Assembly (NCBI GenBank): GCA_037447655.1
Contig: JBBHKE010001283.1
Span: forward strand, 567,173-631,172
Source: Zygnema cylindricum
Taxonomy: Eukaryota; Streptophyta; Zygnematophyceae; Zygnematales; Zygnemataceae
DNA length: 64,000 bases
Direction of reading: 5' to 3'
Below are positions 9,888-36,359 of this stretch, one piece after another. Position 1 is the first letter of the stretch. Every line of letters begins with the position of its first letter. Under the pieces are notes generated by a model. The model was not told where the DNA came from. It saw only the letters and a list, made by a program, of their open reading frames with translations, and did no database searches. Made by a program: the position numbers and the translations under genes.

Positions 9888-10405
9888 CACCGTGAATCGT
9901 AATTAGAGTTATGTACGCTAATTCCGTCGCCCCAAATTTTGACTCTATCACCCTAAATAGAGTACATAACTCTAAATTATTCTTTACATTATTTAAGGTA
10001 CATTTTGAATCAGCGTTAACAACTCTAATATAGTGCCGTTTTAAATAGTGTGTCGTACGGTCGGTGTCTGATCGTGCAAAATTATACTTTGTTAACTAAA
10101 AAGTACAAAAAATGATTTAATACAGGCCGTTATCATGTAACTGCGTTTTCACAAACCGCGTAGTGCAAACGTCACAATGACGTGAAACTGTACGTTTTGT
10201 CAGATTCTGTACGTGTACCTAATTTATAGTAAAGATATCAGCGCGGATAATTAGTACGGAAGTAATCCAAATTAGGGTTATTGATAAATTATAGTAAATT
10301 TGTTTTGAAAAAAAATGATTACACAAATTAGAGTTGATAACTAAAATTATTGTTTTTCTTTTTTTTACTCTAATAATTTCTTTACTCTAATTACGATTCG
10401 CGGTG
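9888..10405 (-). mobile_element. MITE family A, copy 1
   Basis: Ends CACCGTGAATCGTAATTAGAG and CTCTAATTACGATTCGCGGTG are inverted repeats, flanked on both sides by TA. The interior aligns in reverse orientation with the copy at 35857-36359 (shared CGTACAGAATCTG and AACGGCCTGTATTAAATCAT words). It carries no coding sequence. Confidence 0.8.
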
Positions 10406-10407
10406 TA

Positions 10408-11285
10408 CCTTTTCCTACGATTAGACAATAATTTAGGCAGAGGTAAGTTCCTTACTTTAACATAAGGCAAAAGTTTCAAATAAGTTCTACAAAAATAAAT
10501 TTTCTTACCAATAAAAGGTAATTTTTTGATGTTTTTGGAAATTTGATGTTTCTTTTACAATTTCTTTGAGAATATCCTTGGTGTAAAGTATTTTGGTTGT
10601 ATCATTTTCAATGATTTGAGGCCTTGAAAACAAATGGGCTCCATATGTTTTGTAGATGTTTAGATTGTAAAAGATAATGTATTATGATTTTTTTTCTTTC
10701 GAATTCAAAGCTGTAGGGTAAATATATTTAAACTAACAAGATTTTACATGCAGTTGTGTAATTAGGGTATAAATACAACTTTGGGTTGGAGTAGCTTCAT
10801 GGTAAGACTATCTATAAATGTTTTACTTCGTAGTTTTTCATCATTCTTTTTCTCTTTACTTTTTGATTGCCATTCTTTAATCATCATCACATAGGTCTAC
10901 CATTGTGTATTGTATTCAATGAGGATTATTTACAAGTTCGAAACTAGCACGAAATTTACTTAAAATGTAATTTAAGCCGATTTTGGATGCAACACAGCTC
11001 AACTGTGTCTTGTAGCTAAGATGCATGACCTTAGAATATGCAAATCCATGTAACCCTTTGCTCTTCCGGACTTTTCTTGCTTCCACCAATTCCTTTACCT
11101 TGGTCTTTACTATAATAGAGCCCACGTTAATGTGTGTCCGATTACCATATGACCAAAGTAAAAGCCCCCCAACGCACCTTGAGAAGCATTCCACTAGTAA
11201 GTTTCCCACTTAATTCCCTCCATCTTCATTTATCCAAGGCACTTGTTGCACGCTTCCTTTTTATGTCTCTTGTCCCAGCCTCTCT
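10408..11285. other. Intergenic, no feature recognised
   Basis: AT-rich single-copy-looking DNA. A minus-strand open frame at 10916-11209 has no recognisable motif and I do not treat it as a gene. Confidence 0.5.
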
Positions 11286-15243: not shown

Positions 15244-15524
15244 CAGCCATGGATTACTCACGGAAACACCCACAGACTACCTCAAAAACAGCTGTGTTTC
15301 AGACGACACAGATTACTCCACATTAAACAAAATGATCTCAAACTGCACCAATATGCAGTATACCATATACACTGTAAACTCCTAAAGTTACAGCCAAATC
15401 CACCAAGGCATCTAGAAGATATAAGCTTCAGAGTTTCCCAAATGTAGCTGACAGTTTCACAAACTAACCACTTAGACTGTTCACAGAATCTTACAGAGAT
15501 ACTGGAATACAATGAAACTTCTGT

Positions 15525-15829
15525 AAATCAACAACAATAATAATATATCCCTCTATTAATAACTGTTTGTTACAAATCACAATATTTCGTAATCTTTAAT
15601 TTAATATGTATTCTCAAGCATCAATTTAGTCGGGATGGCAAACGCGTACCTTTTCCTTTTTTGCTCTTGCGATATTAAATCAACAACAATAATAATATAT
15701 CCCTCTATTAATAACCGTTTCTTACGAATTACAATATTTCGTAATCTTTCATTTGATATGTATTTTTAGACATCAATTGAGTCGGGATGGCACACGTACC
15801 TTTTTCTTTTTTTTCTCTTGCGATGTATG
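15525..15829. repeat. 152-bp direct repeat, two copies
   Basis: Copies start at 15525 and 15677 with AAATCAACAACAATAATAAT and both end near CTCTTGCGAT. They lie about 90 bp outside the left edge of the retroelement array and are not part of it. Confidence 0.85.
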
Positions 15830-15922
15830 TTCAGGTATCAATTTTGCACCAATTGCACGTGGGAACATGGGTCGTGGTCATAAGGGACATCTTGTTTTGG
15901 GTCGCGCGGATATACAGACACC

Positions 15923-17092
15923 TGAAACTTTGAGACCTCTATTGGCCCTCAGAGTAGGCAAATCCAAAGAAGCTAATCTAGATAGTGCCGACTCCAAACT
16001 TGATATAAACCCAAATGATTGACCCCTTGACAGTCAAAACCCCAATATAGATTCACCCCTGTGAAATAACACTTTCTGTGTGCTCAGTTCCACCACAGAA
16101 TGCAAAGTTAAAATATGAGATTTGGACACATTCACCCACTTTGACTTTCCCTTAGAAATGCAGCCACCCTGGCAGACAAAACCACTGACCGACTATTTCC
16201 TTGTGTAGCCTAGACTCCCTTGAGTCTGCAGCAAAAAGAATCACTGAAAATGGTCAAGTAAATTGATAGTTATGGCTGGCCAAAGTTTGCCATTTATACA
16301 AGGTGCTCTCTGGGAGAGGCAGCTACCTACCCAAAATTTTCTAAGTCCTATTCCCCCCCTCTAAAACTCTATCTACTGGAAGTACGGCACCAATCAAATT
16401 AATGTGTCGTACAGAAAAGTACAGGTGCCGGTGTACTTTCTGTACGTTCATTGTACGACATGGCCAAAATGTCGACACGTGTAAATCAGGATTAGTTCCT
16501 ATAATCTCCGGAATTCCCGTAATCGAATGTTATCACGCCACGCGTCATCTGACGTGGCAAATACCGTAAAACGCCAAAAGTACCTTTTCTGTGATCGCGG
16601 CGCCTATCGCGGCCGTCAGATCAAAACCGGCTATAATCGTAGCCGCTAAAATTCGACGCGCGGTATTTGTTTCGCTATCGAAACAAAAGCGCGGTATCCG
16701 TTCTGTCCCCGTACCGTACTTCGTACTAAATCAAACTGTATCTATGCACTAAGTATCTATTCGTCGTTAAACGAATTAATCTACATGTGACGATTTATAT
16801 ATTTATCAAACCCTATGTATCGTAATATGTGTCCTAGACTTAACGGCTAGAGCTAACGGCTAATGCAAATTGACGTACGGCAGGGACAAGGATCAATTCT
16901 TGGGTCCGTCAACTAACTTTTGGTAAATCTACCTACTTTACCCCTTGTCTTCTCTAGAGAGCTTAGGCAGCCATGGCTCTAGCTCCCTATCCAGCCTTCA
17001 GTGACTACAACAAGTGTGGGGGCTTGGAGAGGGGAGTTAGAGGCACACTGCCTCTGCCTTTTTCTATCCTAGAAAATACACAAACATCAACA
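15923..17092 (-). repeat. Array LTR 1 (outer 3' LTR)
   Basis: 1,170 bp. The left edge is where homology to the other LTRs ends, next to the candidate duplication ACACC. Contains the GTAC hairpin at 16409-16446 and a second hairpin near 16883-16910. The potential gag ATG near its end reads ATA here. Confidence 0.85.
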
Positions 17093-19139
17093 CTCCCCTT
17101 ATTTTCTAGTCTATTTTCCTTTCAACTCCCACACACAAAAAAAACCAAAATACTCCCTCTAATTTATTTATTTTCACTTTTCCTTTTTCCTTTTCCTTTT
17201 ACAAACCTTTTTGACAATACCCTCACATCTTAAAAGGTCCATTAGATGAGCTGAAATAAACATTCGATCTTGCTGATCACATATTCTATTAAGCATCCCA
17301 ATTTTCATAACCCCGAGCAAAGATTTTATCCACCTCATCACTTTTTCATCCACACACAACCCGATTTCTCTCTTGCAATCCAAACAGCCAGCCCCATCTC
17401 CAATCTGCAACATATACCCGGATGATAACCCTTTTACAGGAACATCTTCAGAAGCGACATCACACCAAGTAGTGATGTCAAATCCATCCACCTCCAAATA
17501 TTCCCAAAAAACACTAGTCCCCACTAAGTTTCTCATAAGATCTACATCTTCCGTACTCATATTTTTATCTATGATAACTACCCCATTTTCTGAACTTTTC
17601 TCACTCTCTCCCATGGATTTCTTTCCACTCTCTCTTTCTAAATTTATTCCCAATAAGTATTTCTCCTCCCCTAAACCTTTCATTAAATATTCCTCTTCTC
17701 CCTTATATTTAAAAAACCCTTCTAGTTTCACTTCTCCCCTTTCCTCGGAGTCCGTTGTGGTCTCCTTTTCCGACCTGTTTTCTAATTCCAAAATACCTAT
17801 AAAATTATCCTCATTACTTTTATCTTTCCCGTTTTCACTCATGGATCCTAGATCCAACTTTCTCATTTCTAAGTCACACACTTTACACTCCTCAATATCC
17901 TCAAGTTCCTCCTCTCTCTTTACTTCCTTATACCTCCATAAGCACACTATTGCCTTCGAGCAATTTCTGTGTGCTTTTCTCTCTTCCCCATTCTACTGAT
18001 GTGAAGAAGCTCCAATTTTTCTTCATCCTCTTTCTCCTCTTCCTCTTCGTCCTCCTCATCCACATTCCAACTTCTAAGTTTTTCCAAACAAGGACATTCC
18101 TCTATATAATGACCCGGTTCCCTACAAAATATGCAAACCCTTTTTTTCAAAGCTCCTCTGTCTTTTCCTCTCTCTCTTTTTCCACCAAAGTTCCGATAAG
18201 GTTTACCTTTGTCTTTCTTCCTCTCATCACGCTTCTGTTCGTCACCACCGTTCCTCTCATCACGCTTCCGTTCGTCACCACGTTCCTCTCATCACGCTTC
18301 CGCTGGTCACCGCCTTCCTCTCATCACGCTTCCGCCAATCACCACCAGCTGTAAATGCAGTCACCCTTTCACTTCCCCTACGAAGCTCCAAAGTGCTTTC
18401 CCTCACAAGTATTATCCCCATGGTAACGCTCCAAGTCCACGAGGAGCCATCCATTTCCTGCATACGGTAAATGATGTCTTCGTACTCATCCGGGAGTTTC
18501 ATTATTAGAGTATTAATCTTTCTCTCCTCAGATTCTACATATCCCGCACTAGCAAGCTCAACATATAATGCAGCAATATCATTGCAAAACTCTATCATGC
18601 TACCGCCTTTATAAACATAGGCCTCTATTTCTTGTTTCACTAATTGCTGCCTCTGTATAGTCTCACTCTTATAAATCTGAATTAGTGCTTCCCATATTTT
18701 TGAAGACTTGGTTAGACTTAAAAGAGTGATAGCTATGGACTTAGACACATATCTAAGTATGAGATGTTTTGCTATAGTGTTTTTATAATCCCATATTTTT
18801 CTATCATTTTCTTCAGTTTTAATCCCTACAAGTGGTACCATAGCCGAGAGCCTAGCTCCCCTCACCATAGGTGTCCCTTTTTCCTTCTCCCCTATTTCCC
18901 CATCCACGGAAAGATTCTTCCCTTCACCTTGCGTTGCATTTGAACTCCGGTTGATATTCTGGGCAGCCTCAGATGAATCTCCATAGTAAGCACCTCCAAA
19001 GCCAGGTGGCCTACATCTCACTTGTCCCGAAACAATTCCCCATAAGTGCTTCTCGAAAAGCAATCCCTCCATTGTAAACTCTCAATAAGTGAAGCTTGTT
19101 TCATCAAACATAGGCACCCTAGATGGTGGGCCCATAACC
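17093..19139 (-). pseudogene. Array internal region 1: gag with intact zinc knuckle and C-terminal region
   Basis: Three frames in order: 19072-18275 (UBN2-type copia gag, e.g. AKHLILRYVSKSIA, YVYKGGSMIEFCNDIAALY), 18150-17947 (CCHC zinc knuckle, CIFCREPGHYIEEC, then an acidic linker), and 17947-17174 (257 aa, unrecognised C-terminal region with FDITTWCDV, GDGAGCLDC and RWIKSL). A stop replaces a conserved Trp before MEGLLFEKHLWGIV. About 32-33-bp repeats at 18206-18350, one of them a base short, shift the frame before the knuckle. A non-autonomous gag is the likely origin. Packaging of element RNA would be its family role, but this copy is broken. Confidence 0.85.
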
Positions 19140-20316
19140 TGAAACTCTGTGTGCTCCATTGCCCACAGAAATCGCAGATCCAAAAGAAGCTTATCTAGAT
19201 AGTGCCGACTCTAAGTTGATATAAACCCAAATGACTGACCCCTTGACAATCACAAACCCATTATAGCTTCACCCTTGTGAAATAAGACTTTATGTGTGCT
19301 CAGTTCCACCACAGAATGCAAAGTTAGAATATGAGTTTTGGACACATTCACCCACTTTGACTTTCCCTTAGAAATGCAGCAACCCTAGCAGGCAAAAACT
19401 CTGACCGACTACACTCCTGTGTAGCGTGGACTCCCCTGAGTCCGCAGCAAAAAAAATCACTTAAAATGGTCAAGTAAATTGATAGTTATGGCTGGCCAAA
19501 GTTTGCCATTTATACAAGGTGCTCTCTGGGAGAGGCAGCTACCTACCCAAAATTTTCTAAGTCCTATTCCCCCTCTAAAAATCTATCTACTAAGTACGGC
19601 ACCAATCAAATGACTGTGTCGTACAAAAAAGTACAGGTGCCGGTGTACTTTATGTACGACTATTGTACGACATGGCCAAAATGTCGACACGTGTCAAATG
19701 AGGATTAGTTCCTGTAATCTCCGGAATTCCCGTAATCCAATGTTATCACGCCACCTGTCATTTGACGTGGCAAAGACCATAAAACGCCAAAAGTGCCTTT
19801 TTCCTGATCGCGGCGCCTATCGCGGCCGTTCGATCAAAACCGGCTATAATCATAGCCGCTGAAATTGGACGCGCGGTATTTATTTCGCTATCAAAATAAA
19901 CGCGTGGTATCCTTCTCTCCCCATACCGTACTTCGTACTAAATCAAATTGTATCTATGCGCTAAGTATCTATTCGCCATTAAACGAATTAATCTACATGT
20001 GACGCTTTATATATTTATCAAACCTTATATATCCTAATATGTGTCCTAGACTTAACGGCTAGAGCTAAGAGCTACTTCATATTGACAGACGGCAGGGACC
20101 AGGATAAATTTCTGGGTCCGTCAACTAACTTTTGTTAGGTCTACCTAATTTACCCCCTGTCTTCTCCTGAGAGCTTAGGCAGCCATGGCTCTAGCTCCCT
20201 ATCTAGCCTTTAGTGACTACAACAAGTGTGGGGGCTTGGAGAGGGGAGTTAGAGGCACTCTGCCTCTGCCTTTTTCTATCCTATTTACAGACCTAGAAAA
20301 TACACAAATATCAACA
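19140..20316 (-). repeat. Array LTR 2
   Basis: 1,177 bp, shared between internal regions 1 and 2. Its gag-proximal end differs from the others: CTCTGTGTGCTCCATTGCCC replaces the usual GAGACCTCCATTGGCC. Confidence 0.85.
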
Positions 20317-22321
20317 CTCCCCTTATTTTCTAGTCTATTTTCCTTTCAACTCCCACACACAAAAAAAAACCAAAATACCCCCTCCCAATTTTTTATTTTT
20401 ATTTTTTTTCCTTTTCTTTTTTCCTTTTCCTTCTATAAACCTTTATGACAATGCCCTCACATTTTAAAAGGTCCATTAGATGAGCCGAAATAAACATTCG
20501 ATCTTGGTGATCACATATTTTATCAAGCATCCCAATTTTCATAACCCCGAGCAAAGATTATATCCACCTCATCACTTTTTCATCCACACACAACCCGATT
20601 TCTCTCTTGCAATCCAAACAGCCAGCCCCATCTCCCAATCTGCAACATATATCCGGATGATAACCCTTTTACAGGCACATCTTCACAAGTGACATCACAC
20701 CAAGTAGTGATGTCAAATCCATCCACCCCGAAATATTCCCAAAAAAACACTAGTCCCTACTAAGTTCCTCATAAGATCTACATCTTTCGTACTCATATTT
20801 TTATCCATGATAATTACCCCATTTTCTGAACTTCCCTCACTCTCTTCCATGGAATTCTTTCCACTATCACTTTCTGATTTAATTCCCAATAAATATTTCT
20901 TTTCTCCCCTATCCTTTAAAACCCTCTTCGAGTTTCACTTCTCCCCTTTCCTCGGAATCCCTTGAAGTCTCCCTTTCTGACCAGATTTTTTGTTTCCGTA
21001 TTATCTATAAAATTATCCTCATTAATTTTATCTTTCCCGTTTTCACTTATGGATCCTAAATCTGACTTTCTCATCTTTAAGTCATACACTCTACACTTCT
21101 CAACATCCTCAAGTACCTCCTCTCTCTTTACTTCCCTTATACCTCCAAAAGCACACTGTTGCCTTCGTGCAATATGTGTGTACTTTTCTCTCTTCCCCAT
21201 TCTACCGATGTGAAGAAGCTCCAATTTTTTCTTCATCCTCTCTCTCCTCTTCCTCTTCGTCCTCCTCATCCACATTACAACTTCTAAGTTTTTCCAAACA
21301 AGGGCATTCCTCCTTATAATGACCCGGTTCCCTACAAAAGAAGCAAACCCCTTTTTTTCAACGCTCCCGTGTCCTTTTCCTCTCCCTCTCTTTCCACCAA
21401 AGTTCCGATAAGGTTTACCTTTGTCTTTCTTCCTCTCATCACGCTTCCGCTCGTCACCCACCGTTCCTCTCATCACGCTTTCGCCAATCACCGTCGTTCC
21501 TCTCGTCACGCTTCGGCTAATCACCACCAGCTGTAAATGCATTCACCCTGTCACTTCCCCTACGAAGCTCCAAAGTGCTTTCCCTCACAAGAATTAACCC
21601 CATGGTAAAGCTCCCAAGTCCATGAGGAACCATCAAGTGCCTGCATACGACAAATGATGTTTTCGTACTCATATGGGAGTTTCATAAGTAGTGTATTAAT
21701 CTTACTCTCCTCTGATCTACATATCCCGCACTAGCTAGCTCAACATATAACGCAGCAATATCATTGCAAAACTCTATCATGCTACCGCCTTTATAAACAT
21801 AGGCCTTTATTTCCTATTTTACTAATTGATGCCTTTGAATAGTCTCACTCTTATAAATCTGACTTAGTGCTTCCGATATCTTAGAAGGACTTGGTTAGAC
21901 TTAAAAGAGTGATAGCTATGGACTTAAACACATATTAAGTATGAGATGTTTTGCTATAGTGTTTTTGTATTCCCATATTTTTCTGTCATTTTGTTCAGTT
22001 TTAATCCTTACATGTGGTACCATAGTTGAGAGCCTAGCTCCCCTCACCATAGGTGTCCCTTTTCCCTTCTCCCCTATTTCCCCATCCACGGAAAGATTTT
22101 TCCCTTCACCTTCCGTTGCATCTGAACTCCGGTTGATATTCTGGGCAGGCTCAGATGAATCTCCATAGTAAGCTCCTCCAAAGCCAAGTGGCGGACATCT
22201 CACTTGTCCCGAAACAATTCCCCATAATTGTTTCTCGAAAAGCAATCACGCCATTGTAAACTCCCAATAAGTGAAGCTTGTTCCATCAAACATAGGCACC
22301 CTAGATGGTGGGCCCATAACT
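20317..22321 (-). pseudogene. Array internal region 2: broken gag
   Basis: The N-terminal gag piece is at 22245-21916. A 208-aa frame at 21542-20916 runs across the zinc-knuckle region out of frame, so the CCHC residues are not read. The C-terminal region is fragmented. Several variants, such as the run of C/T before the polypurine tract and a CGTCGTTCCTCTCGTCACG insertion, are shared with region 4. Confidence 0.8.
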
Positions 22322-23503
22322 TGAAACTCTGAGACCTCCATTGGCCCTCAGAGTAAGCAGATCCAAAAAGAAGCTTATCTAGATAGTGCCGACTTGAAGG
22401 TTATATAAACCCAAATGACTGACCCTTTGACAATCAGAACCCAAATACAGATTCACCCCTGTGAAATAACACTTTCTGTGTGGTCAGTTCCACCACAGAA
22501 TGCAAAGTTAGAATATGAGATTTGGACACATTCACCCACTTTGACTTTCCCTTTGAAATGCAGCCACCTTGGCAGACAAAAACTCTGACCGACTTCAACC
22601 CTGTGTAGCGTGGACTCCCGTGAGTCTGCAGCAAAAAGAATCAATGAAAATGGTCAAGTAAATTGATAGTTATGGCTGCCCAAAGTTAGCCATTTATACA
22701 AGATGCTCCCTGGGAGAGGCGACTACCTACTCAAAATATTCTAAGTCCTATTCTCAATCTAAGACCCTATCTACTGACGTACGGCACCAATCATTCACTG
22801 TACCGTACAGATAAGTACAGGTGCCGTTGTACTTTCTGTACGACAATCGAACGATATGGCTGAAATGTCAACACATGTCATATATCTATTTGTTCCCGTA
22901 ATCTCCGGTGTCGCCGCAATCCAATGTTGACGTGCCATGTGTCATCCTATATGGCGATGACCGCAAACCGCCAAAAGTACATATCCCGCGATCGCGGCGC
23001 CTATCGTGGCCGTCCGATCAAATCCGGCTATATTTCTAGCCGTTGAAAATAGACGCGCGGTATTTGTTTTGCTGTCGAACCAAATGCGCGGTATCCGTTT
23101 CAATAAATAAATCTGTACTCCCTACTATCCATAACTGTATCTATGCAATACGTATATATTTCTTGTTAAATGAACTAGTCTACGTGTAACTATCTAAATA
23201 ATTATCAAACCCCATACGTCGTGATACCAGCTCTAGTCTAAATGGATAAAGTCACCGACTAACGGCGATTTGATGGACGGTAGGTACCAAGATCAATTCC
23301 TGGGTCCGTCAAACACCTTTTGGTAAGTCTTACTAATTTACCCCTTGTCTTCTCTAGAGAGCTTAGGCAGTCATGGCTCTAGCTCCCTATCCAGCCTTCA
23401 GTGACTACAACAAGTGTGGGGGCTTGGAGAGGGGAGTTAAAGGCAGATTGCCTCTGCGTTTTTCTATCCTATTACAGACCTAGAAAATACACAAATATCA
23501 ACA
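22322..23503 (-). repeat. Array LTR 3 (most divergent)
   Basis: 1,182 bp. It carries many substitutions not seen in the other five LTRs between about 22690 and 23300, including the GTAC hairpin region near 22800-22845, yet both ends are conserved. Confidence 0.85.
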
Positions 23504-25461
23504 CTCCCCTTATTTTCTAGTTTATTTTCCTTTCAACTCCCACACAAAAAAAACCAAAATACTCCCTCCCAATTTTTTATTTTTTATTTTTCTTTTCCTT
23601 TTCCTTTTCTTTTTATAAACCTTTATGACAATACCCTCACATTTTAAAAGGTCCATTAGATGAGCTGAAATAAACATTCGATCTTGCTGATCACATATTT
23701 TATTCAGCATCCCAATTTTCACAACCCCGAGCAAAGATTTTATCCACCTCATCACTTTTTCATCCACACACAACCCGATTTCTCTCTTGCAATCCAAACA
23801 GCCAGCCCCATCTCCAATCTGCAACATATACCCGGATGATACCCCTTTTACAGCACATCTTCACAAGTGACATCACACCAAGTAGTGATGTCAAATCCAT
23901 CCACCTCCAAATATTCCCAAAAAACACTAGTCCCCACTAAGTTCCTCATAAGATCTACATCTTCCGTACTCATATTTTTATCCATGATAACTACCCCATT
24001 TTCTGAACTTCCCTCACTCTCTCCCATGGAATTCTTTCCACTATCACTTTCTGATTTAATTCCCAATAAATATTTCTTTTCTCCCATATCCTTTAAAACC
24101 CTCTTCGAGTTTCACTTCTCCCCTTTCCTCGGAATCCTTGAAGTCTCCCTTTCTGACCAGATTTTTGTTTCCGTATTATCTATAAAATTATCCTCATTAA
24201 TTTATCTTTCCCCGTTTTCACTTATGGATCCTAAATCTGACTTTCTCATCTTTAAGTCATACACTCTACACTTCTCAACATCCTCAAGTACCTCCTCTCT
24301 CTTACTTCCCTTATACCTCCAAAAACACAGTGTTGCCTTCGTGCAATTTCTGTGTGCTTTTCTCTCTTCCCCATACTACTAATCCGTAGAAGCTCTAAAA
24401 AATCTTCATCCTCTTTCTCCTCTTCCCCTTCTTCCTCCTCATCCACATTCCAACTTCTAAGTTTTTCCAAACAAGGGCATTCTTCCATACAATGACCTGG
24501 ATCCTTACAAAAAAAACAAACCCTTTTTTTCAAAGCTCCTGTGTCTTTTCCTCTCCCTCTCTTTCTATCAAAGTTCCGATAAGGTTCACCTTTGTCTTTC
24601 ATCCTCTCATCACGCTTCCGTTTGTCACCGCCGTTCCTCTCATCACGCTTCCGCCAATCACCACCAGCTGAAAATGCATTCACCCTGTCACTTCCCCTAC
24701 GAAGCTCCAAAGAGCTTTCCCTCACAAGAATTATCCCCATGGTAAAGCTCCAAGTCCATGAGGAACCATCAAGTGCCTACATATGACAAATGATGTTGAC
24801 GTACTCATCTGGTAGTTTCATAAGCAGTGTATTAATCTTACTCTCCTCAGATTCTACATATCCCGCACTAGCTAGCTCAACATATAACGCAGCAATATCA
24901 TTGCAAAACTCTATCATGCTACCGCCTTTATAAACATAGGCCTTTATTTCCTATTTTACTAATTGCTGCCTTTGAATAGTCTCACTCTTATAAATCTGAC
25001 TTAGTGCTTCCGATATCTTAGAAGACTTGGTTAGACTTAAAAGAGTGATAGCTATGGACTTAAACACATATCTAAGTATGAGATGTTTTGCTATAGTGTT
25101 TTTTGTATTCCCATATTTTTATGTCACTTTCTTCATTTTTTAATCCCTACATGTGGTACCATAGCTGAGAGCCTAGCTCCCCTCACCATAGGTGTCCTTT
25201 TTTCCTTCTCCCCTATTTCCCTATCCACGGAAAGGTTTTTCCCTTCACCTTCCGTTGCATCTGAACTCCGGATGATATTCTGGGCAGCCTCAAATGATTC
25301 TCCATAGTAAGCTCCTCCAAAGCCAAGTGGTGGACATCTCACTTGTCCCGCAACAATTCCCCATAAGTGCTTCTCGAAAAGCAATCCCTCCATTTTAAAC
25401 ACACCAATAAGTGAAGCTTGTTCCATCGAACATAGGCACCCTAGATGGTCAGCCCATAACC
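23504..25461 (-). pseudogene. Array internal region 3: gag with readable zinc knuckle
   Basis: The frame 24740-24252 runs from the end of the UBN2 domain through basic RKRDER repeats into an intact CCHC knuckle (CFFCKDPGHCMEEC) and an acidic linker, showing that these parts belong to one protein. The N-terminal part is frameshifted near 25400 and the C-terminal region is split (24087-23848 and 23827-23522). Confidence 0.85.
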
Positions 25462-26650
25462 TGATAACTCTGAGACCTCCATTGGCCTCAGAGTAGGCAG
25501 ATCAAAAGAAGCTAATCTAGATAGTGCCGACTCCAAACTTGATATAAACCCAAATGATTGACCCCTTGACAGTCAAAACCCCAATATAGATTCACCCCTG
25601 TGAAATAACCCTTTCTGTGTGCCCAGTTCCACCACAGAATGCAAAGTTAGAATATGAGATTTGGACACATTCACCCACCTTGACTTTCCCTTAGAAATGC
25701 AGCCACCCCTGGCAAACAAAACCTCTGACCGACTATACCCTTGTGTAGCGTGGACCCCCCTGAGTCTGCAGCAAGAAAAATCACTGAAAATGGTCAAGTA
25801 AATTGATAGTTATGGCTGGCCAAAGTTTGCCATTTATACAAGGTGCTCTCTGGGAGAGGCAGCTACCTACCCAAAATTTTCTAAGTCCTATTCCCCCTCT
25901 AAAACTCTATCTACTGAAGTACGGCACCAATCAAATTAATGTGTCGTACAGAAAAGTACAGGTGCCGGTGTACTTTCTGTACGGTCATTGTACAACATGG
26001 CCAAAATGTTGACACGTGTCAAATTAGGATTAGTTCCTGTAATCTCCAGAATTCCCGTAATCCAATGTTATCGCGCCAACGTGTCATCTGACGTGGCAAA
26101 GATCGTAAAACGTCAAAAGTGCATTTTCCGTGATCGCGCGCCTATCGCGGCCGTCCGATCAAAACCGGCTATAATCCTAGGCGCTGAAATTCGACGCGCA
26201 GTATTTGTTTCGCTATCGAAACAAATGCGCGGTATCCGTTGTGTCCGAGTACCGTACTGCGTACTAAATCAAAATGTATTTATGCACTAAGTATCTGTTC
26301 GCCGTTAAACTAATTAATCTACTTGTAACAATTTATATATTTATCAAATACAATATATCCTAATATGTATCCTAGGCCTAACGGTTTAGAGCTAACGTCT
26401 AACGGAAGATGACGGACGGCAGGTACCAAGATCAATTCCTGGATTCGTCAATATCTTTTAGTATATATCTAATCCACCCCATGTCTTCTCTAGTGAGCAT
26501 TAGGCAGCCATGGCTCTAGCTCCCTATCAAGCCTTCAGTGACTACAACAAGTGTGGGGGTTTGTAGAAGGGAGTCAGGGACAGACTGCCTTTGCTCTTTT
26601 CTCCTTTGCTCTTTTTCTATAAAGACCTAGAAAATACTCAAATATCAACA
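25462..26650 (-). repeat. Array LTR 4
   Basis: 1,189 bp. It shares private variants with LTR 6 (for example CATTGGCCTCAGAGTAGG lacking a C, and AATCTCCAGAATTCCCG). Confidence 0.85.
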
Positions 26651-28673
26651 CTCCCCTTATTTTCTAGTCTATTTTCCTTTCAACTCCCACACCCACAAAA
26701 AAAACAAAATACCCCCTCCCAATTTTTTATTTTTATTTTTTTTTCCTTTTCTTTTTTCCTTTTCCTTCTATAAACCTTTATGACAATGCCCTCACATTTT
26801 AAAAGGTCCATTAGATGAGCCGAAATAAAACATTCGATCTTGGTGATCACATATTTTATCAAGCATCCCAATTTTCATAACCCCGAGCAAAGATTTTATC
26901 CACCTCATCACTTTTTCATCCACACACAACCCGATTTCTCTCTTGCAATCCAAACAGCCAGCCCCATCTCCAATCTGCAACATATATCCGGAATGGAATT
27001 GGAATAAATATTAAAGTGTGATAACCTTTTACAGGCACATCACAAGTGACATCACACCAAGTAGTGATGTCAAATCCATCCACCCCGAAATATTCCCAAA
27101 AAACACTAGTCCCTACTAAGTTCCTCATAAGATCTACATCTTTCGTACTCATATTTTTATCCATGATAATTACCCCCCATTTTCTGAACTTCCCTCACTC
27201 TCTTCCATGGAATTCTTTCCACTATCACTTTCTAATTTAATTCCCAATAAATATTTCTTTTCTCCCCTATCCTTTAAAACCTCTTCGAGTTTCACTTCTC
27301 CCCTTTCCTCGGAATCCCTTGAAGTCTCCCCTTTCGACCAGATTTTGTTTCCCTATTATCTATAAAATTATCCTCATTAATTTTATCTTTCCCGTTTTCA
27401 CTTATGGATCCTAAATCTGACTTTCTCATCTCTAAGTCATACACTCTACACTTCTCAACATCCTCAAGTACCTCCACTCTCTTTACTTCCCTTATACCTC
27501 CAAAAGCACACTGTTGCCTTCGTGCAATATCTGTGTACTTCTCTCTTTTCCCCATTCTACCGATGTGAGGAAGCTCCAATTTTTCTTCATCCTCTCTCTC
27601 CTCTTCCTCTTCGTCCTCCTCATCCACATTACAACTTCTAAGTTTTCCAAACAAGGGCATTCCTCCTTATAATGACCCCGGTTCCCTACAAAAGAAGCAA
27701 ACCCTTTTTTTCAAAGCTCCCGTGTCTTTTCCTCTCTCTCTCTTTCCACCAAAGTTCGGATAAGGTTTACCTTTGTCTTTCTTCCTCTCATCACGCTTCC
27801 GCTCGTCACCCACCGTTTCCTCTCATCACGCTTTCGCCAATCACCGTCGTTCCTCTCGTCACGCCTTCGGCTAATCACCACCAGCTGTAAATGCATTCAC
27901 CCTGTCACTTCCCCTACGAAGCTCCAAATGCTTTCCTTCACAAGAAATATCCCCATGGTAAAGCTCCAAGTCCATGAGGAGCCATCCATTGCCTGCATAC
28001 GACAAATGATGTTTTCATACTCATCTGGGAGTCTCATAAGTAGTGTATTAATCTTACTCTCCTCAGATTCTACATATCCCGCACTAGTAAGCTCAACGTA
28101 TAACGCAGCAATATCATTGCAAAAATCTATCATGCTACCGCCTTTATAAACGTAGGCATCTATTTCCTGTTTTATTAATTGCTGCCTCTGAATAGTCTCT
28201 TCCTTATAAATCTGAATTAGTGCTTCCCATATCTTTGAAGCTTTGGTTAGACTTAAAAGAGTGATAGCTATCGACTTAAACACATATCTAAGTATGAGAT
28301 GTTTTGCTATAGTGTTTTTGTATTCCCATATTTTAGTGTCATTTCTTCAGTTTTAATCCCTAAATGTGGTACCATAGCTGAGAGCCTAGCTCACCTCACC
28401 ATAGGTGTCCCTTTTTCCTTCTCCCCTATTTCCCTATCCAAGGAAAGATTTTTCCCTTCACCTTCCGTTACATCTGAGCTCTGGTTGATATTCTGGGCAG
28501 CCTCACATGAATCTCCATAGTAAGCTCCTCCAAAGCCAGGTGGCGGACATCTCACTTGTCCCGAAACAATTCCCCATAAGTGTTTCTCAAAAAGCAATCC
28601 CGACTTTGTAAACTCCCAATAGGTGAAGTCTGTTCCATCGAACATAGGCACCCTAGATGGTGGGCCCATAACC
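26651..28673 (-). pseudogene. Array internal region 4: broken gag
   Basis: Frames at 28669-28391 (start MGPPSRVPMFDGTDFTYW), 28283-27897 (UBN2 core), 27660-27292, 27164-26916 and 26983-26792. An insertion of about 25 bp at 26990-27020 interrupts the C-terminal region and is unique to this copy. The first frame shows the gag beginning four bases inside the internal region. Confidence 0.85.
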
Positions 28674-29851
28674 TGAAACTCTGAGACCTCAATTGGCCCT
28701 CATAGTATGCAGATCCAAAAGAAGCTAATCTAGATAGTGCCGACTCCAAGTTAATATAAACCCAAATGACTGACCCCTTGACAGTCACAATCCCAATATA
28801 GATTCACCCCTATGAAATAACACTTTCTGTGTGCTCAGTTCCACCACAGAATGCAAGTTAGAATATGAGATTTGGACACATTCACCCACTTTGACTTTCC
28901 CTTATAAATGCAGCCACCCTGGCAGACAAAAACTATGACCGATTACACCCATTTGTAGCCTGGACTCCCCTGATTCCGCAGCAAAAAGAATCACTCAAAA
29001 TGGTCAAGTAAATTGATAGTTATGGCTGGCCAAAGTTTGCCATTTATACAGAGTGCTCTCTGGGAGAGGCAGCTGCCTACCCAAAATTTTCTAAGTCCTA
29101 TTCCCTCTCTAAAACTCTATCTACTGAAGTACGGCACCAATCAAATTACTATGTCGTACAGAAAAGTACAGGTGCCGGTGTACTTTATGTACGGCCATTG
29201 TACGACATGGCCAAAATGTCGACACGTGTCAAATCATGATTAGTTCCTGTAATCTTCGGAATTCCCGTAGTCCAATGTTATCACGCCACGTGTCATCTGA
29301 CGTGGCAAAGACCGTAAAATGCCAAAAATGCCTTTTCCGTGATCGCGGCGCCTATCGCGGGTGTCTGATCAAAACCGGCTATAATCCTAGCCGCTGAAAT
29401 TCGACGCGCGGTATTTGTTTCGCTATCGAGACAAATGCGCGGTATCCGTTCTGTCCCCATACCGTACTTCGTACTAAATCAAACTGTATCTATGCACTTA
29501 GTATCTATTCGCCGTTAATTGAATTAATCTACATTTAACAATTTATATATTTATACAACCCAATATATCGTAATATGTTTCCTAGACTTAACGGCTAGAG
29601 CTAACGGCTAATGCAAATTGACGGACGGCAAGGACCAGGATCAATTCCTGGGTCCGTATCCTATCTTTTGGTAAGTGTACCTAATTTACCCCCTGTCTTT
29701 TCTAGAGAGCTTAGGCAGCCATGGCTGTAGCTCCCTATCCATCCTTCAGTGACAACAACAAGTGTGGGGGCTTGGAGAGGGGAGTTAGAGGCAGATAGCC
29801 TTTGCCTTTTTCTATCCTATTTACAGACCTAGAAAATACAAAATATCAACA
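28674..29851 (-). repeat. Array LTR 5
   Basis: 1,178 bp. GTAC hairpin near 29154-29196 and GGACCAGGATCAATTCCTGG hairpin near 29633-29653 are both well preserved. Confidence 0.85.
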
Positions 29852-31819
29852 CTCCCCTTATTTTCTAGTCTACTTCCTTTCAACTCTTACAAACAAATAA
29901 ACAAACACTCCTTCCCCTATTTCCTTTTTCTTTTCTTTTTATAAAACTTAAGAAAAATACTCTTGTATTTAAAACAATGCATTAGATGAACTGAAATAAT
30001 AATTGCATCACACATTTCATTTAGCACCTTACTTATCACAAATCTGATCAAAGATTTTATCCACCTCCTCCCCTTTTCATCCAACCAGAATCTACTTTCC
30101 CCTTTGCATTTCCAACAGTCAGCCCCATCCCCAACCTGCAACACATACCCGGATGATAACCCTTTTACAGGCACATCTTCACAAGCGACATCACACCAAG
30201 TAGTGATGTCAAATCCATCCACCCCCAAATATTCCCAAAAAACACTAGTCCCCACTAAGCTCCTCATAAGATCTACATCTTCCGTACTCATATTTTTATC
30301 CATGATAATTACCCCATTTTCTGAACTTCCCTCACTCTCTCCCATGGAATTCTTTCCACTATCACTTTCTAATTTAATTCCCAATAAATATTTCTTCTCC
30401 CCTAAACCTTTAATCAAATATTTCTCTTCTCCCCTATCCTTTAAAACCTCTTCGAGTTTCACTTCTCCCATTTCCTTGGAATCCGTTGAAGTCTCCCTTT
30501 CCGACCACTTTTCTGTTTCCCTATTATCAATAAAATTATTCTCATTAATTTTATCTTTCCCGTATTCACTTATGGATCCTAGATCTGACTTTCTCATTTC
30601 AAAGTCATACACTCTACACTCATCGACATCCTCAAGTACCTCTCTCTCTTACTTCCCTTATACCTCCAAAAGCACACTGTTGCCTTCGTGGAATTTTTGT
30701 GTACTTCTCTCTCTTCTCCATTCTACTGATGTGAAGAAGCTCCAAGATTTCTTCATCCTTTTTCTCCTCTTCCCCTTCTTCCTCCTCATTCACGTACCCA
30801 CTTCTAAGTTCTTCCAAAAAAAGGACACTACTCCATATAGTGACCCGGTTTCCTACAAGCAAAGCAAACCCCCTTTTTCAATGTTCCCCTTTCTTTTCCT
30901 CTCCCTCTTCTTCCACCGAAGTTTCAATAAGGTTTACCTTTCTCTTTCTTCCTCTCATCACGCTTCCGCTCGTCACCGCCGTTCCTCACATCACGCTTCC
31001 GCCAATAACCACCAGCTGTAAGTGAAGTCCCCTTGTCACTTCCCCAACGAAGCTCCAAAGTGCTTTCCCTCACAAGTATTATCCCCATGGTATTGCTCCA
31101 AGTCCATGAGGATCCATCCATTCCCTGCATACGGTTAATGATGTATTCGTACTCATATGGGAGTTTAATGATTAGTGTATTAATCTTTCTCTTCTCAGAT
31201 TCTACATATCCCGCAGTAGCAAGCTCAACATATAACGCAGCAATATCATTGCAAAACTCTATCATGCTACCGCCTTTATAAACATAGGCCTTTATTTCCT
31301 GTTTAACTAACTGCTGCCTCTGTATAGTCTCACTTTTATAAATTTGAATTAGTGTTTCCCAAATTTCCGAAGACTTAGTTAGATTCAAAAGAATGATAGC
31401 TATAGACTTCGACACATATCTAAGTATGAGATGTTTTGCTATAGTGTTTTTATATTCCCAAATGTTCCTATCATTTTCTTCAGTTTTTGGTTCAGTTATA
31501 ACCCCCACAAGTGGAACAGTAGCCGAGAGCCTAGCTCCCATCACCATCGGTGTCCCTTTATCCTTCTCCCCTAATTCCCCATTCACGGCAAGGTTTTTCC
31601 CTTCACCTTCCGTTGCATTTGAACTCCGGTTGATATTCTGGGCAGCCTCAGATGATTCTCCATAGTGAGCTCCTCCAAAGCCCGGTGGCAGACACCTCAC
31701 TTGTCCCGCAACAATTCCCCATAAGTGCTTCTCGAAAAGCAATCCCTCCATTTTTAACACCCAATAAGTGAAGCTTGTTCCATCGAACATAGGCACCCTA
31801 GATGGTCAGCCCCATAACC
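29852..31819 (-). pseudogene. Array internal region 5: most divergent gag copy
   Basis: A 290-aa frame (31796-30924) covers the PMFDG start, HLWGIV and the whole UBN2 domain without interruption. The zinc knuckle has decayed. The 231-aa frame at 30612-29917 keeps the core of the C-terminal region (VDLMRSLVGTSVFWEYL, FDITTWCDVACEDVPVKGL, GDGADCWKC) while its last 60 or so residues differ from region 1. Being next to the outer 5' LTR and the most divergent, it may come from an older element. Confidence 0.85.
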
Positions 31820-32993
31820 TGAAACTCTGAGACCTCCATTGGCCTCAGAGTAGGCAGATCAAAAGAAGCTAATCTAGATAGTGCCGACTCCAAACTTGAT
31901 ATAAACCCAAATGATTGACCCCTTGACAGTCAAAACCCCAATATAGATTCACCCCTGTGAAATAACACTTTCTGTGTGCCCAGTTCCACCACAGAATGCA
32001 AAGTTAGAATATGAGATTTGGACACATTCACCCACCTTGACTTTCCCTTAGAAATGCAGCCACCCTGGCAAACAAAACCTCTGACCGACTATACCTTTGT
32101 GTAGCGTGGACCCCCTTGAGTCTGCAGCAAGAAAAATCACTGAAAATGGTCAAGTAAATTGATAGTTATGGCTGGCCAAAGTTTGCCATTTATACAAGTT
32201 GCTCTCTGGGAGAGGCAGCTACCTACCCAAAATTTTCTAAGTCCTATTCCCCCTCTAAAACTCTATCTACTGAAGTACGGCACCAATCAAATTAATGTGT
32301 CGTACAGAAAAGTACAGGTGCCGGTGTACTTTCTGTACGGTCATTGTACAACATGGCCAAAATGTTGACATGTGTCAAATTAGGATTAGTTCCTGTAATC
32401 TCCAGAATTCCCGTAATCTAATGTTATCGCGCCACGTGTCATCTGACGTGGCAAAGATCGTAAAACGTCAAAAGTGCATTTTCCGTGATCGCGGCGCCTA
32501 ACAGGGTCGTCCGATCAAAACCGGCTATAATCCTAGCCGCTGAAATTTGACGCGCGGTATTTGTTTCGCTATCGAAACAAATGCGCGGTATCCGTTCTGT
32601 CCCCATACCGTATTTCGTACTAAATGAAACAGTATCCATGCACTAAGTATCTATTCGCCGTTAGACGAATTAATCTACATGTAACAATTTATATATTTAT
32701 CAAACCCAATATATCGTAATATGTTTCCTGGACTTAAAGGCTAGAGCTAACGGCTAAATTTGACGGACGGCAGGGACGAGGATCAATTCCTGGGTCCGTC
32801 AACTATCTTTTGGTAAGTCTACCTAATTTACCCCTGTCTTCTCTAGAGAGCTTAGGCAGCCATGGCTCTAGCTCCCTATCCAGCCTTCAGTGACTACAAC
32901 AAGTGTGGGGGCTTGGAGAGGGGAGTTAGAGGCAGACAACCTCTGCCTTTTTCTATCCTATTTACAGACCTAGAAAATACACAAATATCAACA
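31820..32993 (-). repeat. Array LTR 6 (outer 5' LTR)
   Basis: 1,174 bp. Homology to the other units stops exactly at ATCAACA (32993), followed by the candidate duplication ATACC and unrelated sequence. Confidence 0.88.
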
Positions 32994-33315
32994 ATACCGC
33001 CTCGCGCGCACACAGATATCACTTATTTAAGGTTTTCAACACTGCAGCCAAAGGTCTGTAATTTTAAATCGAAAAAACCGATTTTTAATTTTGTATTTTT
33101 TCTCTTGACACTAATAATACACTCTTCATGGGAACAAAACTATAGGGTGATTTGATCAGCTTAAAGTGTGTTTTTTTTTCGGTATTGCCGGTGGTAGTTC
33201 GTAGATACTGGCGGGCGGCAACGTTGCATTACACCATCGGTACAGCGGTCCGTAATGCGGACGGTCGTACGACAACGTTACATTGTGCCACGTACGGTGG
33301 TATGTACTGCTGACG

Positions 33316-33730
33316 GAAGGCGACGTAGAATTACCCCAGCGGGGGCAGCGTATAATTACGTCAGCTGGCAATAGCATACAATTAAGCCACCGAGCGGCAG
33401 CATGGAATTACGCCACCGAGTGGCAGCGTAGAATTACGCCAGCGGGCGCCAGCGTTTAATTACGCCAACTATCGGCGGCGTAGAATTACGACACTGAGCG
33501 GCAACGTATAATCAAGCCAGCCGGCGGCAGCTTAAAATTATGCCAGTAGGCGGCAGCGTAGTACCACGCCAGCGGGCGGCAGCGTAAACTTACGCCACCA
33601 AGCGGCAGCGTGTAATCCGCCACCAAGCGGCACCGTAAAATTATGCCGGCCGGCGGCAGCGTAGAATTATGCCACTAGGCGGGCGGCAGCGTAGAATTAT
33701 GCCACCGGGCGGGCGACAACATAGAATATT
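33316..33730. repeat. 26-bp minisatellite, about 16 degenerate units
   Basis: Units follow GCCACCGAGCGGCAGCGTAG followed by AATTAC, mostly 26 bp with two 30-bp variants at the right end. Flanking DNA on both sides (33180-33300 and 33725-33790) carries a longer related word, GGTACAGCGGTC. G+C content is well above the surroundings. Confidence 0.88.
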
Positions 33731-34297
33731 GCACGGTACAGCGGTCTGTACCGCGACGGGCGGCAGCGCTACATCGTGCCCGCGGTACGGCCGTGTGACG
33801 GAAAAAAATCGAGACAGACACGACGCCTATATAAGGGTTCCCCCGAAGGTGAACAACGTTCCCTTATTTATATGCCGATTTCAACTATGTCGTTTCTATG
33901 TTCCAAAAGTACGGATAGATCGTACAAACGTGAGAAGGGTCGCATGCATGTGAAATAGCGTATGATAGTTGCCGTATACCCGTATTGGATGCACGAAGAG
34001 GTAACATATTCAGAAAGGGAATTGCTAATCGCAGAGACGATTTTTGATGCGCGCAGGTAGTTGTCATAAATTGTACATGTGAAGTACAATTTCGTACAAG
34101 CTACGTACCTTTAAGTTCAGATTTGACGGTCAATCCGTCGAACAACTTTGACTGACGAAATATTGTAACGGCGGTTAAAAAACTGTCGCGCTTGCGAATG
34201 CCGACCGTCATGAAAAAAAAAACAATTCTCACGGCCAGTCAGATTTAGTGTAACAAAACTGCGGCAGCCACATATAAATAAAATGGCTGCGCGCATG

Positions 34298-34700
34298 TAG
34301 TTACTCACTTCACGTGAGCTCCACTGTGAAAGCACACACCGACAATATGAATCAATGTGAAGTATTTATTCAATGTAAGAATGTTAATTCGAAAATAGTG
34401 TGGTGGAATCAATGTGAAGTACGTTTTCAATGTAAAGATGTTGATTCGTAAAAAGTGTGGATTCATTTGGTCGCGCGTGACGACGCGTCATTTCAGTTTC
34501 ATTGATATTTATACGCGGGTACGCTTTTATATTTTGTACGAAGTTTATTTCGTTTCGTGCGAGTTTATACATGTCGTACGTCGTCCTTTAATTTGTGTCC
34601 AAGTTCAACGTAACGGTTCGCGATTAGATTCCATTTTTGCGGCTAAAGTCAAATGTCGGTGTGTGCTTTCACAGTGGAGCTCACGTGAAGTGAGTAACTA
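34298..34700. mobile_element. Small inverted-repeat element with 48-bp ends
   Basis: GTAGTTACTCACTTCACGTG at the left is mirrored by CACGTGAAGTGAGTAACTAC at the right, and the match extends about 48 bp inward through AGCTCCACTGTGAAAGCACA. The interior has a twice-repeated AATCAATGTGAAGTA motif. It abuts the next MITE. Confidence 0.7.
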
Positions 34701-34916
34701 CACCGCGCATCGTTATTAGTGTCAAAGTTTAAATAGCGTAAAAAAAAATAGTGTTATTGATTCTAATTAAGTGCGAGAGACGTGGCAAATTATGGTCCAC
34801 GTTTTTAAATAGCGTTGCTAATTTAATTTCGAAAATCATGTATACTAATTGCGGAAAAATATTAAAATTTTAAAAACCCAAATTAGTGACTTTGACACTA
34901 ATAACGATTCGCGGTG
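34701..34916. mobile_element. MITE family B, copy 1
   Basis: CACCGCGCATCGTTATTAGT on the left and ACTAATAACGATTCGCGGTG on the right, flanked by TA and TG. 216 bp, no coding sequence. Its right end lies two bases from the left end of a family A copy. Confidence 0.75.
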
Positions 34917-34918
34917 TG

Positions 34919-35534
34919 CACCGCGAATCGTAATTAGAGTAATGAAAAATTAGAGTAAAAAAACCAAAAACGTCAATTAGAGTAATTAACTATAATTTAT
35001 GTGATATAACTTTTTCACAGAGGAAGTTAACTCTAATTTATTTAAGTTCTCCATATTGGGTTATGTCGGCAATAATTATCCGCGCTGAAATTATGAACAC
35101 TAAATTACGTAGACGTACAAAATCTGTCATTCAGTATAGTTCTGACGTCATTATGACGTTATGACTATTTGTCGCGCTTAATGTCAGTTAATGTTCACAC
35201 TGACAACGATGTTGTCGAGAAACGATAGTTATGTGAACGGCTTTTTTTCGATGTGATTGATTTTTTGTTTAGTGTGATTTCACATGCGAGCGCGATTCTA
35301 TTAAATCATTATTTGTACCTTTTTACATGTAAAAGTACAATTTTGCACGGTCGGACGTCGTCCGTAAACCACACTATTTAAAACGAACCTATATTATATA
35401 TTTTTACGCTAATTAAACCTTACCTAAATTAGAATAATGAAAAAATTAGAATCATTTACTCTATTTGACGTGAAAGAGTCGAAATCTCGAGCGACTGAAT
35501 TAGCATTATTTACTCTAATTAATAATTCTCGGTT
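34919..35534 (+). mobile_element. MITE family A, copy 2
   Basis: The left end CACCGCGAATCGTAATTAGA is intact. The right end has decayed to TAATTCTCGGTT followed by TA. The interior matches copies 1 and 3. Confidence 0.75.
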
Positions 35535-35856
35535 TACCTGCGCGTAGCCATTTTATTTATATGTGGCTCCCTCATTTTTGTTTCAATAAACCTGCGCCGG
35601 CTGTGTGAATTGTTTTTTTTTATGACGGTCGACGTTCACAAGTGCGACAATTTTTAACCACCGTTACAATATTTTGCCTGTCAAAGTTGTTCGACGGATT
35701 GACCGTCAAATCTGAACTTAAAGGTACGTAGCTTGTACGAAACTGTACTTCACATGTACAATTTCTCACAACTATATGCGCGCAGCAAAAATCGTCTCTG
35801 CGATTAGCAATTCCCATTCAAAAAAGATATGATGGGAATTACTCCACATTATTGTA

Positions 35857-36359
35857 CACCGCGAATCGTAACTATAGTAAGGAAAAATTTAGAATACCAA
35901 AACTAAAAAAAAACAATTAGAGTAATGAACGCTAATTTATGTGATAAAGTTGTTTCAACTATGAAGTTTACTCTAATTTATTTAAGTATTTTAATTAGGC
36001 ACCCTAATATCCTCTTATGTAAATAGGGTATTCGTACAGAATCTGGCAAAACGTACAGTTTATGTCACTATGACGTTTGCACTACGTGGTTTGTTAAAAC
36101 GCAATTACATGATAACGGCCTGTATTAAATCATTATATGTACTTTTTTACTTAATAAAGTACAATTTTGCACGGTCGGACATCTTCCCTACTCCACACTA
36201 TTTAAAACGAACCTATATTAGAATTAAAAGCGCTTATTAAACTTTACCTTAAATAGAATAATGAAAAAATTATAATCATTTACTCTATTTCATGTGATAG
36301 AGTCGAAATTTCGAGCGACCGAATTAAGGTAACTTACTCTAATTACGATTCGCGATGTA
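35857..36359 (+). mobile_element. MITE family A, copy 3
   Basis: CACCGCGAATCGTAACTATA and CTCTAATTACGATTCGCGATG ends, flanked by TA at both sides. 503 bp, same interior as copy 1 in the opposite orientation. A 214-aa minus-strand open frame overlaps it but has no protein-like features. Confidence 0.8.

Follow-up and report, generated by a model that had tools for sequence, protein, structure and literature searches.

Arrays in which long terminal repeat (LTR) retrotransposons stand in tandem and share their LTRs have been described in several plants. Tandems with shared LTRs and one target-site duplication (TSD) are reported from rice, and further tandems from Arabidopsis, almond and cotton (PMC11899658); tandem terminal-repeat retrotransposons in miniature (TRIMs) with TSDs, such as L3I2 and L5I4 (L, LTRs; I, internal regions), from maize (PMC4717578); and head-to-tail series of LTRs and internal regions, with up to 12 units, from Cassandra elements (PMC7215508). 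The origin of tandems is left undecided in the rice study, in which complex insertion and recombination both seem possible, and the Cassandra study expected ectopic exchange to make units differ, a difference that it did not see in Cassandra. Here we analyse a tandem array in Zygnema cylindricum (Zygnematophyceae), located in a 64-kb stretch of contig JBBHKE010001283.1 (positions 567,173 to 631,172), which we refer to as the window. The array comprises five units of a short, non-autonomous Copia element and looks like one insertion, and younger sister arrays of the same family carry the signature of unequal exchange between LTRs.

The array resembles the rice tandems, which have the layout LTR-internal-LTR-internal-LTR with shared inner LTRs and one 5-bp TSD around the whole (a 4/5 match in the Zygnema array) and are seen as single insertions; at one of them, TLI1, the units have diverged as well (internal regions 94% identical, LTRs 85-89%). 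Most of the rice tandems, however, are Gypsy elements, and both loci treated in detail there are dimers, whereas the Zygnema array has six LTRs and its family, compared with the rice loci, includes younger arrays with a recombination signature and tracts shared with dispersed copies (PMC11899658). Like tandem TRIMs, the element is short, non-autonomous and arrayed with TSDs, but TRIMs are below 1.5 kb and described as lacking retrotransposon proteins (PMC4717578), while the Zygnema unit, at about 3.2 kb, is longer and has dispersed copies with gag-coding capacity. Cassandra arrays share the head-to-tail order, but their units are described as almost identical and carry 5S sequences (PMC7215508); the unit differences expected there under ectopic exchange are seen in the window array, whose internal regions differ by Kimura two-parameter (K2P) distances of 0.04-0.15. 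TR-GAG elements, finally, also consist of two LTRs around a gag-coding internal region without reverse transcriptase (RT) or integrase, but the open reading frame (ORF) found here differs in ending in an apparent RNase H remnant (PMC6022998, PMC9784723). The types named in a sunflower list (TR-GAG, TR-RT, TR-RT-RH, TR-RH and TR-INT-RT) do not include a combination of gag with RNase H (PMC9784723), and a limited literature search covering titles and the beginnings of abstracts returned none, which is weak evidence of absence. Tandem LTR elements are thus already known; what is new is a diverged array of a short Copia element, accompanied by younger arrays signed by recombination.

Results

Self-comparison and boundary scans of the window resolved positions 15923-32993 into six LTRs alternating with five internal regions on the minus strand, the element strand being set by a gag match to PF14223. 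Read along the plus strand, the array comprises LTR1 (15923-17092), which is the outer 3' LTR, internal region 1 (17093-19139), LTR2 (19140-20316), internal region 2 (20317-22321), LTR3 (22322-23503), internal region 3 (23504-25461), LTR4 (25462-26650), internal region 4 (26651-28673), LTR5 (28674-29851), internal region 5 (29852-31819) and LTR6 (31820-32993), the outer 5' LTR. With LTRs of about 1.17-1.19 kb ending in TG..CA and internal regions of about 1.96-2.05 kb, the array extends over 17 kb. All units have the same orientation, no unrelated DNA lies between LTRs and internal regions, and the inner LTRs are common to neighbouring units, as in tandem LTR retrotransposons. Pairwise identities of 82-94% between LTRs and 86-96% between internal regions are far beyond chance. 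The five-unit tandem array is thereby confirmed as assembled, an error of assembly at a single junction being conceivable, and with it the unbroken alternation and sharing of LTRs that had been proposed in a sequence-only reading of this DNA.

On the plus strand the array is flanked by ACACC (15918-15922) and ATACC (32994-32998), corresponding to GGTAT/GGTGT in element orientation, a probable TSD matching at four of five positions; at fixed LTR ends, and assuming equal base frequencies, such a match has a chance of about 1.6%. The outer LTRs, LTR1 and LTR6, are separated by a K2P distance of 0.061. This falls within the range of 0.033-0.070 for the own LTR pairs of ten dispersed elements, while only one of 394 non-own dispersed pairs has a distance of 0.061 or less, and likewise one of 163 when the comparison is confined to the main LTR subfamily. 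No other pair of array LTRs is as close, adjacent LTRs being 0.094, 0.208, 0.205, 0.116 and 0.079 apart, and internal region 5 stands out among the internal regions with distances of 0.138-0.153 to the others. In the unmasked LTR tree, a single clade of all six array LTRs was rejected by the approximately unbiased (AU) test (p 2.7e-60), whereas a single clade of the array internal regions was not (p 0.094). Short shared tracts in LTR1, LTR3 and LTR4, described below, disturb the LTR tree. With the converted rows dropped or masked, LTR1 and LTR6 became sisters with SH-aLRT (approximate likelihood-ratio) support of 88.0-95.7: 95.7 when the LTR1 tract was masked and LTR3 and LTR4 were dropped, and 88.6 (not starred) when LTR4 and the dispersed copy L023 were dropped, in which case the array LTR clade was still rejected (AU p 3.8e-7).

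The genome (352.8 Mb in 2,689 contigs) was searched with a 33-base pattern covering the LTR end, the primer-binding site (PBS) and the gag start. At up to three mismatches it yielded 5,732 matches, which represent junctions rather than verified copies, compared to 6 for a reversed control; the family is high-copy. For sister arrays we relied on PBS pairs at unit spacing or near-multiples of it among the exact pattern matches listed, and fetched five loci, which by this choice are likewise no random sample. Unit-spaced LTR matches were rejected as proof of arrays, as they may be the two LTRs of a single element. One of the five loci, C575, did not prove to be a clean array. The other four are clean: C544 (TSD ACACA/ACACA), C117 (GGCTG/GGCTG) and C19 (TTGGC/CTGGC) are of the form L3I2, and C321 (41530-55521; CTTGT/CTTGT) is of the form L5I4, its LTRs forming one clade with a support of 100. 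The TSD pair around the whole array is thus perfect at C321, C544 and C117 and matches at four of five positions at C19, as in the window. Together with the window array, the genome holds at least five arrays of this family. The sequence-only reading had considered such arrays unusual, a view that finds no support either in these loci or in the literature cited above, which documents arrays of TRIMs, of Cassandra and of ordinary LTR elements.

The dimers record how they were formed. At C544 the outer LTRs differ at 18 of 1,126 positions and the internal regions at 1 of 1,982 (one-sided p 1.4e-7), and at C19 the corresponding counts are 5/1175 and 0/1894 (p 0.008), indicating that the insertion had already aged by the time its internal region was duplicated; C117 showed 6/1194 and 3/1886 (p 0.086). 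Unequal exchange between a 3' LTR and a 5' LTR further predicts a middle LTR that is of the 3' type first and of the 5' type later. In C544, one 3'-outer-type substitution site is followed by 17 sites of the 5'-outer type (chance of this order 1/18), all of them counted in the portion that follows a 229-bp duplication within the 5' LTR of this locus; the first 295 bp contain three further sites, all of the 3' type, of which one shares its LTR offset with the 3'-type site already counted. In C117, four 3'-type sites precede two 5'-type sites (1/15), three of the four lying within 4 bp and so perhaps reflecting fewer events, and two sites occur in the middle LTR alone. The dimers thus point to unequal exchange between LTRs following insertion, the middle LTR switching from the 3'-outer to the 5'-outer type in two of three. 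At C321 the inner LTRs are of the 3' type at three sites (4, 197 and 353), and from 355 to 1070 they are mostly, with exceptions, of the 5' type; we dropped these counts as support, as they are mixed and include an end artefact from one cut LTR piece.

The window array shares long tracts with copies elsewhere. A 677-bp tract (16483-17159; 610 bp of LTR1 and 67 bp of internal region 1) is identical to the dispersed copy L023 on contig C2651. In LTR3, the outlier among the array LTRs, about 952 bp (22471-23422, edges approximate) show no difference to L031, a truncated copy on contig C438, compared to 94-95% identity for the other 38 matches to LTR3 that were scored, out of 11,363 candidates; this tract stops short of the LTR boundary and leaves out the adjacent internal region. 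LTR4 and LTR6 have 673 bp in common with 8 differences, located in the 3' half in element orientation. In the 22 pairs that scored best out of 595 LTR pairs sampled, tracts of at least 500 bp were confined to own pairs, LTR1-L023 and LTR4-LTR6. We infer gene conversion from the zero-difference tracts, and our reading of the inner units is that conversion or recombination with other copies has replaced parts of their sequence. The internal regions of C321 indicate that sequence exchange may also occur in young arrays. In a separate observation on the dispersed element L022, its two LTRs (3245-4462 and 6511-7689) have 710 bp with 4 differences at an overall identity of 93.5% (gaps counted), which suggests conversion between the LTRs of one element.

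For the dispersed members we fetched 20 loci from 43 matches to part of unit 2; these were the best ones outside the window and not a random sample. Ten (L009, L010, L015, L016, L017, L018, L020, L021, L022 and L027) are LTR-internal-LTR singletons that are complete or almost so, with internal regions of 1,958-2,048 bp, too short for pol. The others comprise an element with an internal deletion (L011), a dimer remnant (L024) and eight truncated, contig-end, nested or complex cases. Scored by the best pair near each end, the 12 dispersed elements including L011 and L024 had seven perfect 5-bp TSDs, three at 4/5 (one at a non-canonical LTR start) and two for which none was found. All RT motifs detected at the 20 loci lie outside the elements.

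Pol-bearing Copia relatives do lie in the flanks of family loci, and some family members are inserted in or beside them. In element orientation, the flanks of L009 encode gag, Pol_BBD, rve and an SH3-like domain (Pfam), followed by RT as identified by motif, and a locus designated L025 contains RVT_2 (Pfam, E 1.5e-67). Integrase thus precedes RT, the order of Copia elements. The relative's gag is about 40% identical to the element ORF and therefore denotes kin rather than the same family. At four of the five relative gag starts shown, the exception being that at L017, the LTR end and PBS context are similar to those of the element, and we consider these relatives candidate autonomous partners for trans-mobilisation. 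Elsewhere in the genome, RVT_2 matches have open frames of up to 1,489 amino acids (150 of 22,405 candidates scored). Many Copia RT matches have almost the same score, with open frames about 1,454 codons long, and probably belong to a young autonomous family of Copia elements in this genome. At L010:1257-6531, a family singleton is flanked on both sides by fragments of a related LTR that runs in the opposite orientation; the ends of the two fragments meet, so the singleton seems to be inserted in that LTR.

In element orientation the LTRs begin with TGTTGAT and end with TTTCA, or nearly so. Directly after the LTR, GTTATGGGCCCACC was found in 12 of the 17 internal regions listed (three of five in the window); the PBS region of window internal regions 1 and 4 is exactly GGTTATGGGCCCACC, while the one following the outer 5' LTR (31805-31819) is degenerate in unit 5. 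All five window internal regions end in AAGGGGAG before the next LTR. GTTATGGGCCCACC would probably pair with the anticodon arm of the initiator tRNA-Met of plants, and priming may therefore be of the half-tRNA type. Drosophila copia, an autonomous insect element that, unlike the element described here, possesses pol, is primed in this mode by initiator Met half-tRNA.

In two of 12 dispersed internal regions examined, L009 and L024, almost the entire length is taken up by one ORF of 653-660 codons, and in both its first Met codon lies inside the GTTATGGGCCCACC motif. None of the five window internal regions has a single frame open throughout; the longest open gag piece, in internal region 5 (30924-31805), is broken downstream. 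The intact ORFs contain Retrotran_gag_2 (PF14223; E 5e-16 and 9e-17, with 2.7e-15 for the window gag) and a zinc knuckle scoring below the Pfam cut-off. Like Drosophila copia, the element has a gag core matching the Copia virus-like particle protein (E 6e-7; capsid structures 8s41 and 8vvw, by sequence). Protein searches with gag yielded no relatives at E 0.001. To judge from the Pfam and capsid matches, the gag is of the Copia type, as required for the Ty1/Copia superfamily. The two intact ORFs differ by 0.046 nonsynonymous (dN) and 0.098 synonymous (dS) substitutions per site. Across dispersed internal regions, variation at third positions exceeds that at positions 1 and 2 in the gag and zinc-knuckle (CCHC) parts but not after the CCHC motif, so that the L009/L024 pair is the sole source of support for constraint on the C-terminus.

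This C-terminus, about 130 residues, was initially regarded as an unknown domain, as it had no Pfam match, a view dropped when it was found to align, at 29-34% identity, with the sequence that follows RT in Copia relatives flanking five loci (L025, E 1.3e-17; L018, L011, L009 and L010). We take the post-RT region to be RNase H because it is placed after RVT_2 and shows Copia motifs, although the relative's post-RT piece matched nothing in Pfam or the PDB. A block around STMEAEYM in the relatives, presumably the one holding the catalytic Glu, is missing from the element. The C-terminus thus appears to be an RNase H remnant devoid of the catalytic-Glu block, and the most suitable label for the element is that of a TR-GAG-like derivative formed by deletion in pol and ending in a dead RNase H tail. 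It would work like a TR-GAG, as a variant in which a remnant of pol accompanies gag as coding content. The simple gag-only reading was rejected on this account. The sequence-only reading had expected a TR-GAG-like family with dispersed LTR-gag-LTR singletons, which exists, and an internal region fully accounted for by gag and a polypurine tract; gag is indeed present, but it is neither the only coding content nor a full account of the internal region, the end of which, in element orientation, looks like the RNase H remnant.

Several other features were noted in the window. A 152-bp tandem pair (15524-15824) lies just left of the array, and a 26-bp minisatellite of about 15 copies (70% matches; 33324-33712) near its right end. 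A further repeat has direct and inverted copies at 75-89% identity (9886-10408 and 34013-36359). A 38-bp minisatellite (8.4 copies, 98% matches) occupies 40607-40921, and about 119 copies of the hexamer TCCCTC occupy 48410-49120, similar pyrimidine- or purine-rich short repeats recurring in the window. The nine-base unit ACCCTAAAA, in 14 copies at 51177-51303, is telomere-like. An AP2-domain gene at 42809-43408 (PF00847, E 3.7e-14) suggests a plant-lineage host.

Discussion

We propose that the window array began as a single insertion of a short non-autonomous Copia element, composed of an LTR, a putative half-tRNA-type PBS overlapping the start codon, an ORF for gag, zinc knuckle and dead RNase H, a polypurine tract and a second LTR. 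Two copies of the locus, on sister chromatids or homologues, would then have undergone unequal recombination between the 3' LTR of one and the 5' LTR of the other, each such exchange adding one unit with a chimeric shared LTR, until repeated rounds had produced five units. Later the units would have decayed, and the array LTRs would have swapped tracts with dispersed members and with each other by gene conversion, which would make the units look as if they came from different sources. The window array seems to be an older case overprinted by conversion, and we infer from the sister arrays that it grew by the same route. We assign this reading a probability of roughly 0.6. The expansion of one insertion site, already envisaged by the sequence-only reading, agrees with the 4/5 TSD, with outer LTRs that are as close as own pairs and become sisters after masking, and with the post-insertion duplication seen in sister arrays.

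A number of observations weigh against it. Adjacent LTRs (K2P 0.079-0.208) and several internal regions in the window differ more than the outer pair does (0.061), so foreign sequence must have entered the array. Two of 174 pairings of array with dispersed LTRs are closer than LTR1-LTR6, namely LTR1-L010 (0.059) and LTR1-L023 (0.040), the latter because of the shared tract. In the unmasked tree with all rows, a sister relationship of LTR1 and LTR6 was rejected (AU p 0.0014), and LTR2 and LTR5 fall outside the group of LTR1, LTR4 and LTR6 (AU p 3.6e-4 with LTR3 and LTR4 dropped; with LTR4 kept, a five-LTR clade was rejected at p 0.009). Only two donor tracts were found for the window array, and the half shared by LTR4 and LTR6 is not continued by matching internal regions. 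As for the sister arrays, the age contrast at C117 is by itself not significant, if in the same direction as at C544 and C19; the chimera test is uninformative at C19, where five of five sites are of the 3' type, and its signature is mixed at C321 and not clean in the window array. The internal regions of C321, finally, are further apart (K2P 0.012-0.061) than its LTRs (0.006-0.025), contrary to the prediction of plain duplication.

The main rival is the addition of units from outside, with extrachromosomal cDNA or one-LTR circles of other family members recombining into resident LTRs; it owes this rank to internal region 5, LTR2 and LTR5, for which no local source was found. Under this scenario the outer LTRs and the TSD would still look like one insertion, the outlying internal region 5 and LTR3 would be accounted for, and the array LTRs need not form a single clade with respect to dispersed ones, as the AU tests show. 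Integrase-independent entry into pre-existing elements has a precedent in yeast, cited in PMC11899658, whereas circular retrotransposon DNA in Arabidopsis (PMC10462705) has only an indirect bearing. However, the outlier status of LTR3 is largely explained by the 952-bp tract within the LTR, a common clade of the internal regions is not rejected, and the three younger dimers have each duplicated their own internal region. An origin of the units from different elements, as the LTR tree had suggested, is likewise weakened by the LTR1 and LTR3 tracts and by this local duplication; we keep outside addition as a rival but think it rather unlikely. The TSDs around the C321, C544, C117 and window arrays would equally be expected if a multi-unit cDNA, formed by template switching or tandem read-through, had integrated once, as proposed as possible in PMC7215508 and PMC11899658. 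This is improbable, given that the internal regions of C544 and C19 differ far less than the outer LTRs (C117 pointing, without significance, in the same direction) and that two of the three dimers have a middle LTR composed of a 3'-type part followed by a 5'-type part; multimer insertion is disfavoured for C544 in particular, and 17 kb would be very long for a cDNA of this element.

Differences between units, and family members found in or beside relatives, could also be reconciled with several neighbouring insertions of the same orientation that were fused by LTR-LTR deletion. We regard this as very improbable: the outer TSD would have to match at four of five positions by chance, the outer LTRs would have to belong to the one in 394 non-own pairs that are this close, and no intervening DNA is seen in the array. 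An assembly artefact, in which contigs of different loci were chained through the high-copy LTR, might come to mind for a genome in 2,689 contigs and for two LTRs with zero-difference tracts to other contigs, as misused reads might give. It is equally hard to credit, as the outer TSD and the kinship of the outer LTRs tie both ends together, the internal regions are far enough apart (K2P 0.04-0.15) for reads to separate them, and four further arrays have matching or 4/5 TSDs.

Satellites can originate from tandem repeats inside retrotransposons (PMC7004042), and the sequence-only reading had supposed that the array could mark a satellite in formation. Long homogenised arrays of tens of kb or more are what defines a satellite; with five units in 17 kb and the divergence of its internal regions, the window array shows little homogenisation, and that description does not apply so far. 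It is nevertheless conceivable, though we offer this tentatively and with considerable doubt, that a high-copy gag-RNase H family keeps making arrays by unequal LTR exchange and genome-wide tract swapping, and that the window array is an early satellite.

The ORF of gag and dead RNase H shows how a deletion in pol can leave a non-autonomous element that still propagates. For the origin of tandems, left open in PMC11899658, the most recent survey considered here, the dimers of the Zygnema family give a readable answer at single loci, based on the 3'-to-5' middle LTR in two of three and on internal regions closer than the outer LTRs in all three, significantly so in two. Should the family indeed be giving rise to satellites, its monomers would evolve within a dispersed conversion network, with no local homogenising, and the genome would present a time series of satellite birth that leads from dimers to the L6I5 array of the window.

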